Shown in pieces: positions 28,990 to 34,180 of a stretch of 52,244 bases of DNA. Below the pieces are notes generated by a model, which worked only from the letters and a program-made list of their open reading frames with translations, was not told where the DNA came from and did not search any database. This DNA is from Pseudomonadota bacterium (lineage in GTDB: Bacteria > Pseudomonadota > Alphaproteobacteria > SHVP01), in assembly GCA_027622715.1 (NCBI GenBank), contig JAQBYN010000019.1, positions 1 to 52,244 of the forward strand. Reading direction: 5' to 3'. Position numbers and translations under genes: made by a program. Each line of letters starts with the position of its first letter. Position 1 is the first letter of the stretch.

Positions 28990-31026
28990 GTGACCGACAA
29001 AAACAATATCCCTTCTTCCTCAGAGAGCGTACCAACGCCCTCAGGAATCTCGATGCGCGATATGGCAAACGCCATTCGCGCCTTGGCTATGGACGCCGTC
29101 GAGCAGGCCAATAGTGGTCATCCTGGCATGCCGATGGGCATGGCCGATGTCGCGACGGTCCTCTTTTCCAAGTTCCTCAAGTTCGACCCGGATTGGCCGG
29201 ATTGGCCGGATCGCGATCGTTTCGTGCTTTCGGCAGGTCACGGCTCGATGCTGCTGTACAGCCTGCTTTTCCTGACCGGCTACCCCGACATGACGCTGGA
29301 CCAGCTAAGGCGCTTTCGCCAGCTCGGCAGCCGCACCCCGGGGCATCCAGAATATGGTGCCACGCCAGGGATCGAAACAACGACTGGCCCGTTGGGTCAG
29401 GGACTGGCGACAGCAGTCGGCATGGCGCTCGCCGAACGGATGCTGCATGCGCGCTTCGGCACCGAAATCGTCGACCATCGCACCTGGGTGATCGCGGGCG
29501 ACGGCTGCCTTATGGAGGGGATCAGCCACGAGGCCATCTCAATGGCCGGCCACTTTCGCCTTGGTGGCCTGATCGTTTTGTTCGACGACAACAGCATTTC
29601 GATCGATGGGCCGACCAACCTTTCGGTGGACGACGACCAACTTGCGCGGTTCGCCGCGTCGGGCTGGCATATCGAACGCGCCGACGGGCACGACCCCGAT
29701 GACCTTGCGCGGGCGATGGAGGCGGCCACCCAAGACCCGAGACCGTCGCTGATCGCATGCAAGACCGTCATCGGATTCGGTGCGCCCAAGAAACAAGGCA
29801 CCGCCTCGACGCATGGTTCGCCCTTGGGCGCCGAGGAAATCGCCGCCGCCCGCGTCGAGCTCAACTGGCCCCATCCGCCGTTTGAAATTCCCGCTGACAT
29901 CTTGGACAGTTGGCGCGCGGTCGCCGGACGCGGTCGCGGGCAGTCACGGGCCTGGCACCAGCGGCTCCGCAGCCTCGACAAACGCGACCAAAAACTTTGG
30001 CATGCCGCGTTGGCTGGCGACACCACGCCAGTCGGCGACGCGATTCTCGCTTTTAAGGCCAGATTAGCGAGCGAGCGGCCGACCTGGGCGACGCGCAAGT
30101 CTTCGCAAGAAGCCCTTGAAGCGATCAACGCCGTTTTAGCCACGACGATTGGCGGATCGGCCGACCTGACAGGATCCAACAACACCAAGACCAAAAACAT
30201 GGCCGTCGTGACGCCGGACGACTTCGGCGGTCGCTACCTTCATTATGGCGTGCGCGAACATGGCATGGCGGCCGCCATGAACGGCCTGGCGCTGCACGGC
30301 GGGTTCATTCCCTACGGCGGCACGTTTCTGGTTTTCACGGATTACCTTCGACCTGCCTTACGCCTGTCGGCGCTGATGAAGCAGCGGGTTATCTATGTGA
30401 TGACGCATGACTCGATTGGGCTCGGCGAAGACGGCCCGACCCATCAGCCGGTCGAACAGTTGGCGAGCGTCCGCGCGATGCCCAATGTGGTGACGCTGCG
30501 GCCTGCCGACGCCGTCGAAACCGCCGAATGTTGGGAGATAGCAATCGACCGTACCGACGGGCCATGCGTGATCGCTCTGTCCCGCCAAGGCCTGCCAGCT
30601 GTGCGGCTGGATCATGTCGAGGAAAATTTGTGCCGCCGCGGCGCCTATGAAATCGCGCCTGCGAACGGGGACGCGGTGGCGACATTGTTTGCAACAGGTT
30701 CTGAAGTCGCGGTGGCATTGGCCGCGCGCGACATTCTGGCAAAAGCCGGCCACCCGAGCCGTGTGATCTCGGTACCGTCTTGGGAGCTCTTCCAACAGCA
30801 GCCGGCGGACTACCGTGCCGACATCCTTGGGCGCGGCACGGTGCGGGTCGCGGTGGAAGCCGGTGTCCGGATGGGCTGGGACGGGTTTATCGGCGAAGAC
30901 GGTATCTTTGTCGGCATGACGTCGTTTGGCGAATCCGCACCGGTTGATGACTTGTATGAACATTTCGGGATCACCGCCGACGCTATCGCCCAGCGTGTGA
31001 CCACTCGATTGGCCGAGAGTACGTAG
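28990..31026 (+). CDS. tkt: Transketolase
   Basis: The 678-aa thiamine-diphosphate enzyme moves two-carbon ketol units between sugar phosphates in the pentose phosphate or Calvin pathways. [12 protein letters not shown] (39-50), the ThDP/Mg motif [13 protein letters not shown] and the catalytic-Glu region [14 protein letters not shown] are intact. [20 protein letters not shown] is also typical. The start is GTG at 28990; its Shine-Dalgarno is weak, and [14 protein letters not shown] downstream is where conservation begins. A 9-bp tandem repeat at 29190-29210 duplicates Asp-Trp-Pro in the segment [13 protein letters not shown]. It heads the tkt-gap-fba operon. Confidence 0.95.
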
Positions 31027-31039
31027 GAGGAACGTTGAG

Positions 31040-32047
31040 ATGCCGACACGCGTCGCGATTAATGGATTTGGACGGATCGGGCGGCTCGTGCTGCGCGCCA
31101 TTCATGACTCAAAACGAAAAGATCTTAAGGTCGTCGCGATTAACGACCTCGGTCCTGTCGATGCGAACGCGCATCTCCTGCGTTACGATTCTGTGCACGG
31201 CCCCTTTCAGGGCACCGTCAAGACCTCGAAGAACGGTCTGGACATCGGCGGCGGCAAGATTGCGGTATTCGCGGAACGTGACCCAACGGCGTTGCCCTGG
31301 GGCAAGCTGAACGTCGATCTGGTTTTGGAATGCACCGGGATTTTCACAAAACGCGAACAGGCCGAGGCGCACATCGAGGCAGGCGCCCGCCGGGTTCTGA
31401 TTTCCGCACCCGCGACGGGCGCCGATCTCACGGTGGTCTACGGCGTCAATCACGACAAGCTGCGCAAGGGGATGACCATCATCTCCAATGCGTCGTGCAC
31501 GACGAACTGCCTCGCCCCGATCGCAAAAGTCCTCAACGATGCGGTGGGCATTGATCAGGGTTACATGACCACCGTGCATGCCTACACCGGCGATCAGCCG
31601 GTACACGATACGCTGCACAAGGATTTACGCCGGGCGCGCGCCGCGAACCTTTCGATGATCCCGACCTCGACAGGCGCAGCGCGCGCGGTCGGGATGGTGC
31701 TCCCTGAGCTCGACGGCCGGTTGGACGGAACGTCCATTCGGGTGCCGACCGCAAACGTTTCGATGATCGACTTTCACTTCACTGCAAAACGAAAGACCAG
31801 CATCGAGGAAATCCACGCCGCAATCAGCAAAGCCGCAAATGGCAAGATGAAAGGCGTGCTGGCCACCAATAGCGAGCCGTTGGTATCAATCGACTTCAAC
31901 CACAATCCGGCAAGTGCGACTTTCGATATGACGCAGACGCAAGTCATGGGCGGCAAGTTGTGTCGGGTTCTGTCGTGGTATGACAACGAGTGGGGCTTTT
32001 CCAACCGCATGGCCGACACCGCATCGGCGATCGGCAAGTTGGGATAG
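31040..32047 (+). CDS. gap: Glyceraldehyde-3-phosphate dehydrogenase, type I
   Basis: The 335-aa enzyme interconverts G3P and 1,3-bisphosphoglycerate with NAD(H). NGFGRIGR (8-15) binds the cofactor, and Asp36 in AINDLG favours NAD over NADP. The active-site Cys153 is in SNASCTTNCLAP. The later PTSTGAARAVG and SWYDNEWGFSNRM segments are standard. GGAGG precedes the ATG. It follows tkt by 13 bp. The next gene is not pgk, which is the usual neighbour. Confidence 0.96.
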   Translation: MPTRVAINGFGRIGRLVLRAIHDSKRKDLKVVAINDLGPVDANAHLLRYDSVHGPFQGTVKTSKNGLDIGGGKIAVFAERDPTALPWGKLNVDLVLECTGIFTKREQAEAHIEAGARRVLISAPATGADLTVVYGVNHDKLRKGMTIISNASCTTNCLAPIAKVLNDAVGIDQGYMTTVHAYTGDQPVHDTLHKDLRRARAANLSMIPTSTGAARAVGMVLPELDGRLDGTSIRVPTANVSMIDFHFTAKRKTSIEEIHAAISKAANGKMKGVLATNSEPLVSIDFNHNPASATFDMTQTQVMGGKLCRVLSWYDNEWGFSNRMADTASAIGKLG

Positions 32048-32057
32048 AAAAGAGGCA

Positions 32058-32474
32058 TTGTCCGCGACCTTCACCTTCCATTCTCGCGGCCACGTTGTCG
32101 CCGCTTTGGCCGCGGCAGCGGAAACCGGGGTGTCCGTAACCCTGGTGACACCGCCTAACGGCGCGACCAGCGCCGGACCCGAGATTTTTCTTGAAATGGT
32201 GCGGGCCGCTCGCGAAGAAGTACCGCAGGGTGCTTCGCGCGTGGTGGTCGATTGCGGTGCGGACGCGGGGACCGCGATGCGGGCACTGCGCTGTGGATGG
32301 CGTGACCTCCTCTTTACCGGTCGTCCGGCGACCAGTCGCAAGATCGAGGAGATGACCAACGCGTTGGACGGTAGGTTCGAAAATGATCGGCCCGTGACCT
32401 ATGATTTGCAGACGGCCAGTGACCCTGCTTGGTTCTGCCGCCGCGCACTTTCCACCGAAGCACGCGCAAGATGA
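32058..32474 (+). CDS. Uncharacterised protein between gap and fba
   Basis: The 138-aa protein (from a TTG at 32058) is not one I recognise. It starts with SATFTFHSRGHVVAALAAAAETG, has an alternating strand/helix pattern (VSVTLVTPP, SRVVVDCGADAGTAMRALRCGWRDLLFTG) and ends in an Arg-rich tail. It shows no phosphoglycerate-kinase motifs, so it is not a pgk remnant. It lacks a signal peptide or membrane helix. The start is uncertain: AGAGG sits only 2 nt before the TTG, and the frame is open back into gap. GC content and codon use look native. Its place in the tkt-gap-fba operon suggests a link with central carbon metabolism. Confidence 0.65.
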   Translation: MSATFTFHSRGHVVAALAAAAETGVSVTLVTPPNGATSAGPEIFLEMVRAAREEVPQGASRVVVDCGADAGTAMRALRCGWRDLLFTGRPATSRKIEEMTNALDGRFENDRPVTYDLQTASDPAWFCRRALSTEARAR

Positions 32475-32502
32475 GCGAATGCGACAAGAAACGGAGCGAA
32501 AC

Positions 32503-33528
32503 ATGACCAGTTCAAACCTCGATGCCATTGCCCGCAAAATGGTCGCCGCCGGGAAAGGTATCCTGGCTGCCGACGAGAGCACCGGAACAATCGGCAAACG
32601 ACTGGACGGCATCGGCGTTAGCAACAGTGAAGACAACCGTCGCGCTTACCGTGAACTGCTGTTCACCACGGCCGGCGCTGGCGACTTTATCAGTGGCGTC
32701 ATCCTGTACGACGAGACAATTCGCCAGAACGCCAGCGACGGAACCCCATTCACCAAAGTTCTGGAGAGCCAGGGCACGCTTCCTGGGATCAAGGTTGACC
32801 AAAGCGTTTTCCCGCTTGCTGGCGCGACTGATTACCCGATCACCGAGGGTCTGGACGGTTTACGCGGCCGCTGTGAGGAATACGCAAAACTTGGCGCGCG
32901 CTTCACCAAATGGCGGGCAGTGATCAAGATTGTCGGTGGGTACACGCCAGATATTGCCATCGAGGCCAACGCCCATGCACTCGCGCGCTATGCCGCGATC
33001 GCGCAAGAAGCCGGACTTGTCCCCATCGTCGAACCCGAAGTCCTGATGGACGGCGACCATACGATTGAAGTCTGCCAAGACGTTACGGAACGCACGCTCG
33101 CGCAGGTTTACGAGCAGTTGTTCCGTCACAATGTCCGCTTAGAGGGCACGGTACTGAAGCCAAATATGGTGGTGGCGGGCAGTACGTGTCCGCAGCAACC
33201 CGGGATTGACGAGGTCACGGACCGCACGCTTGAGGCGTTGCGTCGCCACGTCCCGGGGGCGGTTCCCGGCATCGCGTTTTTGTCCGGCGGACAATCCGAG
33301 GCGGAGGCGACGGCGCATCTCAACGCGATGAATGCGAAGGGGCCGAACCCCTGGGAACTCACCTTCAGTTACGGGCGGGCGTTGCAACAGTCCGCGCTGC
33401 AGGCTTGGAAGGGATCGGCCGCGAACGTTGCGGCCGCGCAGCGCGCGTTCAAACACCGGGCCCGTATGAACAGTTTGGCGCGCACCGGCGCCTACACGGC
33501 ACAACACGAGCGCGAGCTTGCCGCCTAA
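32503..33528 (+). CDS. fba: Fructose-bisphosphate aldolase, class I
   Basis: The 341-aa Schiff-base (metal-independent) aldolase cleaves fructose-1,6-bisphosphate. GKGILAADESTGTIGKRL (18-35) is the class I signature. The imine-forming Lys is about residue 219 in LEGTVLKPNMVVAG. PGIAFLSGGQSEAEAT supplies the phosphate loop. The frame is open from 32401, but the ATG at 32503 gives the family N-terminus. Many alphaproteobacterial tkt-gap-pgk operons carry a class II enzyme at this position or a class I as here. It overlaps thiE by 11 bp. Confidence 0.95.
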   Translation: MTSSNLDAIARKMVAAGKGILAADESTGTIGKRLDGIGVSNSEDNRRAYRELLFTTAGAGDFISGVILYDETIRQNASDGTPFTKVLESQGTLPGIKVDQSVFPLAGATDYPITEGLDGLRGRCEEYAKLGARFTKWRAVIKIVGGYTPDIAIEANAHALARYAAIAQEAGLVPIVEPEVLMDGDHTIEVCQDVTERTLAQVYEQLFRHNVRLEGTVLKPNMVVAGSTCPQQPGIDEVTDRTLEALRRHVPGAVPGIAFLSGGQSEAEATAHLNAMNAKGPNPWELTFSYGRALQQSALQAWKGSAANVAAAQRAFKHRARMNSLARTGAYTAQHERELAA

Positions 33529-34180
33529 TACCAAGGACGGATCACGGGCCAAGTCCGCGGCGCGCTGTCGGCTCTATCTTATTAGCCCACCTGAAATCGG
33601 GCCGGGCTTTCTCGATCAAGCCGCGGCCGCCCTCGCGGCAGGTGACGTCGCGTGTTTGCAACTCCGCCTCAAAGACGCCAGCGACGACGAAATCCTTCGG
33701 GTCGGCGCACAGCTATTGGCGATCACGCAACCCGCCGATGTTGCGTTGCTGATCAACGATCGCCCCGACCTCGCCGCGCAGATCGGCGCCGACGGCACAC
33801 ATATCGGGCAGTCCGATGCCAGCTATCAGGATGCACGCGACCGTGTTGGTGCCGACGCAATCGTTGGCATGACCTGCCACAACTCTCGTCATTTTGCGAT
33901 GGAAGCGGCTGAGCGCGGCGCAGACTATGTCGCGTTCGGCGCGTTCTTCGACTCGCCGACTAAGCCCGCAAAATTTCACGCCGAGATCGACCTTTTAGAA
34001 TGGTGGTGCAGCATTTTTGAAATCCCCTGCGTTGCCATCGGCGGGATTACGGCCAAGAACTGCGGCCCGCTGGTGCGCGCCGGCGCAGACTTTATTGCGG
34101 TGGTCTCGGCAGTATGGGACCACCCCGAGGGGTCGGCGGCTGGCGTTAAGGCGCTTAACGCGGCAATCGCCGAGGCCTAG
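33518..34180 (+). CDS. thiE: Thiamine-phosphate synthase (ThiE/TenI family)
   Basis: The 220-aa TIM-barrel protein fits ThiE, which joins HMP-PP and hydroxyethylthiazole phosphate. CRLYLISPPEIG and LQLRLKDASDDEIL open the barrel. LLINDRPDLAAQIGADGTHIGQ carries the pyrophosphate/Mg residues. The C-terminal IPCVAIGGITAKN and ADFIAVVSAVW loops bind phosphate. The usual YvALGPvFPTxTK region is AFGAFFDSPTKPAKFHA here. The probable start is a TTG inside the end of fba. A TenI-like paralogue remains possible; thiD at 11026 supports ThiE. Confidence 0.82.
   Translation: MPPNTKDGSRAKSAARCRLYLISPPEIGPGFLDQAAAALAAGDVACLQLRLKDASDDEILRVGAQLLAITQPADVALLINDRPDLAAQIGADGTHIGQSDASYQDARDRVGADAIVGMTCHNSRHFAMEAAERGADYVAFGAFFDSPTKPAKFHAEIDLLEWWCSIFEIPCVAIGGITAKNCGPLVRAGADFIAVVSAVWDHPEGSAAGVKALNAAIAEA

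Follow-up and report, generated by a model that had tools for sequence, protein, structure and literature searches.

In E. coli FbaA, a class II fructose-bisphosphate aldolase, Asp109 is catalytic and His110, His226 and His264 are the zinc ligands, as given in the accessible text of PMC5434028. GatZ and KbaZ were annotated as aldolase chaperones and then shown to have C4-epimerase activity, according to the available part of PMC11907403. The half-barrel has been proposed as the evolutionary unit of the TIM fold, and the half-barrels treated in the accessible sections of the review that discusses this proposal are engineered constructs (PMC8250049). Among the matches listed in our literature searches, which left subscription journals mostly outside, there was no recognised description of the protein family presented here or of a natural stand-alone aldolase half-barrel. 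The protein that we call P, encoded by a small gene in a glycolytic gene cluster of an alphaproteobacterium, is almost certainly half of a TIM barrel standing by itself, and descends from the N-terminal (beta-alpha)4-beta5 portion of a class II aldolase.

The P gene and its cluster

The window (the whole 52,244-nucleotide stretch of DNA that was analysed) carries the P gene at 32058..32474 on the forward strand, a call based on the ORF, its homologues and an AlphaFold model (pLDDT 97.4, pTM 0.89). Upstream in the same gene cluster and on the same strand lie the transketolase gene tkt (28990..31026; Pfam) and the type I glyceraldehyde-3-phosphate dehydrogenase gene gap (31040..32047; PF00044/PF02800), the latter directly before P with a gap of 10 nt. 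Downstream, after 28 nt, comes the fructose-bisphosphate aldolase gene fba (32503..33528, forward strand, ATG at 32503), followed by the thiamine phosphate synthase gene thiE (33518..34180, forward strand; PF02581, with TIGR00693 above its cut-off). The thiE coordinate reflects the first possible start, a TTG at 33518 that overlaps the end of fba, and this start is provisional. The original prediction of a 138-aa ORF with a TTG start, in the order tkt-gap-ORF-fba, is correct in every part, and a PF00274 match confirms that the neighbouring fba encodes a class I (animal-type) aldolase.

The TTG start of P is backed by a relative of the same genus (L003), in which a TTG occupies the equivalent position and the open frame extends just three codons upstream of it. 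An AAGAGG stretch (32050-32055) lies just 2 nt ahead of the TTG. A search of positions 31900-32700 found no terminator-like sites. Within P, ahead of fba, there is a sigma-70-like promoter match (32377-32405, TCGAAA-17-TATGAT, 9/12, with 0.1 expected).

P had been suggested to occupy the place of pgk in this operon. The operon in the window does lack pgk, and a search of the rest of the genome, as had been proposed, located the sole pgk that we found on another contig (C67), where it is intact (E 9.2e-139), so that glycolysis in this organism is not short of Pgk. Among relatives, six loci (L046, L051, L054, L076, L091 and L092) have pgk immediately ahead of P, and in four of them (L051, L054, L076 and L091) gap directly precedes pgk. 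Since P and pgk thus coexist side by side, P is no stand-in for pgk, and the idea of a substitution is ruled out by this adjacency together with the copy on C67. The C67 pgk is flanked by two genes that read as adenylate/guanylate cyclase-like (L001 46-1365 and 2692-3957).

Relationship to class II aldolases

P from the window matches no Pfam model at its cut-off, is named by none of the libraries searched, and was to that extent rightly called unrecognised. The first lead was a match to PF01116 of 16.1 bits, below the gathering cut-off of 25.5, and the PLD-like and aldehyde-dehydrogenase Pfam matches to the same protein are as weak. Other members of the family are more telling: 13 of the 22 members in a profile that we call A1 match PF01116 at E<=1 (best E 3.6e-8), as do 6 of the 29 members of a set called A4 at E<=0.001. 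When the PDB was searched with the 22-member profile, the top 19 of 33 rows were class II aldolases, aligned over strands 1-4 with a best E of 1.3e-7. With hhalign, 64 P sequences aligned to 13 class II aldolases of the same class with a probability of 98.0% (E 1.7e-13), P residues 2-112 corresponding to aldolase 22-138, strands 1 to 5. Control profiles built from proteins of the P loci reached 17.9% (ThiE), 0.9% (DhnA-type aldolase) and 0.3% (PF00274 aldolase), and a global hhalign run of P against the aldolases gave a one-column alignment. In an unrooted FastTree phylogeny (77 sequences, 110 columns), P was parted from the 13 aldolases with support 1.0. The homology to class II aldolases is, on these comparisons, specific and goes beyond the shared TIM fold. 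It covers P residues 1-112 (32058..32393, forward strand), which form the (beta-alpha)4-beta5 core according to hhalign and the secondary structure of the model. We rejected the view of P as a relic of a half-barrel from before the duplication, given that the match of P is to the N-terminal half, with just 2.3% for the second-best alignment (aldolase 191-244), and that outside the class only full aldolases were matched at E<=1e-12, a threshold below which weaker relatives from other classes may lie.

Profile and structure searches had been recommended for this protein, and both point to class II aldolase. In a Foldseek search with the P model (best E 2.1e-4), ranks 1-39 were titled as fructose-, tagatose- or sulfofructose-type aldolases, some simply as "aldolase", with the exception of rank 8, titled ALF-ACNA. 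VIA aligned the model best with 8q58 (Z 12.0 over 136 residues, rmsd 2.6) and also gave Z 10.3-10.4 to hexulose-phosphate synthase and RuBisCO; with scores of this kind to other TIM barrels, P could not be assigned to a family by its fold alone. The model of a tail-less member (L074, 109 aa; pLDDT 96.0) found class II aldolases at Foldseek ranks 1-17 (best E 1.9e-3). The small alpha/beta-like protein that had been anticipated is therefore a conserved alpha/beta protein with a confidently predicted domain, and the start codon does not lie so far downstream that no stable domain is left.

Beyond the core, model and sequence comparison delimit a C-terminal tail, residues 113-138 (32394..32471, forward strand), consisting of YDL and then a helix. 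Five short members (L073, L074, L017, L023 and L024; 106-116 aa) lack it, ending shortly past strand 5, which suggests that the protein can do without the C-terminal helix. The tail is present in 55 of the 64 sequences used and resembles no segment of the aldolases in sequence. We considered it as a remnant of strand 8/helix 8, and VIA does align it near the aldolase C-terminus, yet for want of that similarity we set the idea aside.

Residue conservation was counted in 64 distinct members, excluding the partial or eroded L018, its twin L091, L021 and L027, and the aldolase L029. D65 is present in 64/64 and pairs with the Asp in the DHG motif of the aldolases; from consecutive D-H numbering and from general knowledge, we take this motif to hold Asp109/His110 of FbaA. 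Its neighbour C66 (63/64, with one Ala) stands at the position of the zinc His; the two codons, D65 aligning with the catalytic Asp, occupy 32250..32255 on the forward strand. Also conserved are S/T31 (64/64), G40 (62/63), R78 (60/64) and D116 (57/59 members with a residue there), and H8 is found in 47/64, hence is not universal. In the secondary structure of the model, H8, S/T31, D65 and C66 sit at the C-terminal ends of strands 1-3, and the C-terminal strand ends are the usual active-site face of TIM barrels. S/T31 was rejected as the parent aldolase's conserved Ser, one position before which it aligns in both the hhalign and the tree alignments.

The zinc ligands His226 and His264 fall in the barrel half missing from P, which at 138 residues, with homology ending at strand 5, does not form a complete eight-stranded barrel. 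P has lost the second half-barrel along with two zinc ligands and has Cys in place of the third, so that it should not work as a zinc aldolase or be able to cleave fructose bisphosphate by the zinc mechanism. The retained Asp and the new Cys suggest a site that is still in use, not an inert scaffold.

The explanation that we favour, a class II-derived half TIM barrel acting as a ligand-binding accessory, has in our estimate an even chance of being right as a whole; for the accessory role taken by itself the chance would be a little short of even. P would keep the old active-site corner, with H8, S/T31, D65 and C66 at the C-terminal ends of strands 1-3, and this corner might bind, or act chemically on, a small phosphate or aldehyde of the triose type that Tkt, Gap, Pgk and Fba share, P thereby acting as a sensor or regulator or as a minor metabolite enzyme. 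We hold it possible, if doubtful, that a zinc-free Cys/Asp half TIM barrel with its own chemistry or sensing has been inherited unnoticed in the central glycolytic operon of Alphaproteobacteria. The link to triose-phosphate metabolism that had been proposed for P draws its support from descent and gene context rather than from an activity.

The same residues bear on another reading, which we consider rather improbable: that P is a small enzyme whose Cys-Asp(-His) site, at the former zinc-bound carbonyl, acts on a reactive aldehyde or sugar phosphate as an isomerase, epimerase or repair enzyme. A near-invariant C66 beside an invariant D65, with S/T31 and, in most members, H8 sharing that barrel end, would suit such chemistry, and the C4-epimerase activity of GatZ/KbaZ, as reported in the available part of PMC11907403, offers a precedent. 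However, an open half-barrel encloses little for catalysis, and the dN/dS values of P are moderate.

Gene neighbourhoods and coexisting aldolases

The survey of gap-fba neighbourhoods that had been suggested was carried out by tblastn with the window proteins, one class II aldolase and one DhnA-type aldolase over 67 distinct P loci, eroded ones included, and P recurs near gap or pgk, class I fba and thiE. Within 400 bases downstream of P, the match was a DhnA-type class I fba in 31 loci, a PF00274 fba in 11, thiE in 9 and none in 12 (63 loci, each with 600 bases or more on that side). Upstream, gap is next in 24 of the 65 loci with at least 600 bases on that side, pgk in 6 and neither in 35. 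The most constant context of P is central triose/pentose phosphate metabolism together with thiE. The association of P with the operon could also be hitchhiking in a constitutive operon, gap lying within 2.5 kb upstream in only 31/65 loci. The window's genome encodes a second, diverged TMP-TENI protein (L106 1489-2208, contig C42; E 6.8e-28), to which the window's thiE is superior in score; the C42 gene adjoins a gene that reads as yggS-like (PLP homeostasis).

Recurrent neighbours raise the main alternative to our reading, that P is a non-catalytic partner stabilising or regulating an adjacent enzyme, with ThiE as the leading candidate, followed by GapA or transketolase. It is suggested by thiE lying within 2.5 kb downstream in 49 of the 63 loci, by its being the recognised next gene in the 9 loci without fba beside P, and by thiE matches that overlap the end of P in L065 and L072. 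We nevertheless regard it as unlikely: gene adjacency is no proof of contact, and the invariant D-C pair resembles a site rather than a surface.

The aldolases that accompany P narrow the choice of partner further. Among the genomes of the nine loci with thiE next to P, a PF00274 aldolase was found in 1/9, a DhnA-type aldolase in 1/9 (searched with one protein as query, so that a diverged copy could be missed) and a class II aldolase in 7/9, one genome having both the DhnA-type and the class II enzyme. The PF00274 search was positive in 0/14 control genomes, leaving the L072 genome as its sole positive. Neither class I type was found in 7/9 genomes, 6 of which carry a class II enzyme, and the L065 genome (1.6 Mb, of unstated completeness) was the one among the nine searched with none of the three kinds. 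These seven genomes speak against P being a subunit solely of class I aldolase, or a partner of it. Across the 385 genomes sampled, P (at least 137 genomes) and a full class II aldolase (108) occur together in at least 25 (Fisher p 0.0014 among the matches listed, ignoring kinship). As P coexists with each of three fructose-bisphosphate aldolase types, a role as a subunit of any single type is improbable.

The class II enzymes have their own settings. The class II fba has tkt and/or pgk beside it in 5 of 13 loci, and P has different neighbours. In the thiE-next genomes, tkt and/or pgk adjoin the class II fba in 6 of 8 loci (L115-L120), the two loci of G341 having neither. In two of the genomes with P beside thiE, class II fba lies elsewhere, with pgk in one (L118) and with tkt-pgk in the other (L119), as if the aldolase gene and pgk had relocated jointly.

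Distribution, selection and comparison with known systems

As a single query, P from the window matched 29 of 60 genomes at E<=0.01, the window's genome included. Three of the matches look spurious (L028, L030 and L031, from two genomes) and a fourth (L029) is a class II aldolase proper; 26/60 genomes remain, so that the ORF is not a chance one. Profile A1 found matches in 194 of 385 genomes of the class (E<=0.001), some of them full class II aldolases; among the matches listed, 11 of 150 places overlap such aldolases, and P places separate from them occur in at least 137/385 genomes. The A1 matches used reach down to about E 2e-10, and weak or eroded copies, for example that of G029 (L027), account for some few of these 137 genomes. 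The other 191/385 genomes of the class have no A1 match at E<=0.001, so the P gene is not needed by all. In a sample of 398 genomes from the phylum, searched at E<=1e-12, there were 30 matches, of which 16 came from the same class and 14 from elsewhere in the phylum. The outside matches aligned to model positions 5-97 at most; 13 of them belong to frames as long as full aldolases (354-426 aa), and the fourteenth (G524) is a class II aldolase frame with a DHG motif that runs off the contig end. In the genomes sampled here, the P family would thus appear to be confined to Alphaproteobacteria. Named carriers include Magnetospirillum, Paramagnetospirillum, Oceanibaculum and Caenispirillum, as well as MAGs titled Rhodospirillales and Acetobacteraceae. 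A plasmid collection searched with one member as query gave no P match.

P is under purifying selection. Its dN/dS ranges from 0.16 to 0.60 and is below 1 throughout (25 rows listed, representing 16 distinct pairs), so that P has both the homologues and the selective constraint whose lack would have told against a function; values of 0.2-0.6 are looser than expected for a core enzyme. Some decay is visible in the family: L018 (with its twin L091), L021 and L027 look truncated or eroded, and tails and N-termini differ among members. These features, and a class I aldolase usually lying downstream of P, would fit a decaying, functionless remnant of a class II aldolase displaced by class I fba. 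We consider this very unlikely, given dN/dS below 1 in all 25 rows, the confident folds of P and L074, an invariant site in the 64 members left after excluding the four eroded-looking ones, the full support for the split from aldolases, and the spread of the family over at least 137/385 genomes among the matches listed. A split class II aldolase, with P as its N-terminal half and the C-terminal half encoded elsewhere, would fit the homology of P and is otherwise scarcely credible: the zinc His of P's own half is lost, and the window's genome, for which a completeness of 100% is reported, lacks any PF01116 match at E<=1, hence no class II aldolase or C-terminal half, although a highly diverged half could escape the profile.

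A ligand-binding accessory built on half of an aldolase barrel would add a component to the glycolytic gene neighbourhood of many Alphaproteobacteria. It also has a practical side, as the members scoring best on PF01116 (E down to 3.6e-8) could be misnamed aldolases.

Like the class II aldolases (PF01116; FbaA, CbbA, GatY/KbaY, SqiA), to which it is homologous over strands 1-5 with the same predicted fold there, P keeps the catalytic Asp, G40 and the DxG motif. Unlike them, it consists of the N-terminal half only, has Cys in place of the zinc His and usually carries an extra C-terminal helix. GatZ and KbaZ are full-length barrels, unlike P, and have no model among the 16 Pfam families that the 22 P members hit at E<=1, a search in which HMMER filters drop most weaker matches. 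They resemble P as aldolase relatives encoded beside sugar-phosphate enzymes with changed metal-site residues, as described in the accessible part of PMC11907403, and that these "chaperones" turned out to have epimerase activity cautions against calling P merely structural. Engineered TIM half-barrels, such as the HisF halves, share with P a (beta-alpha)4-type half standing alone. P differs from them in being natural, inherited and under selection, and in being an aldolase half with beta5 and usually an extra helix, and it thereby provides a natural test case for whether a lone half-barrel can be a stable, functional protein.
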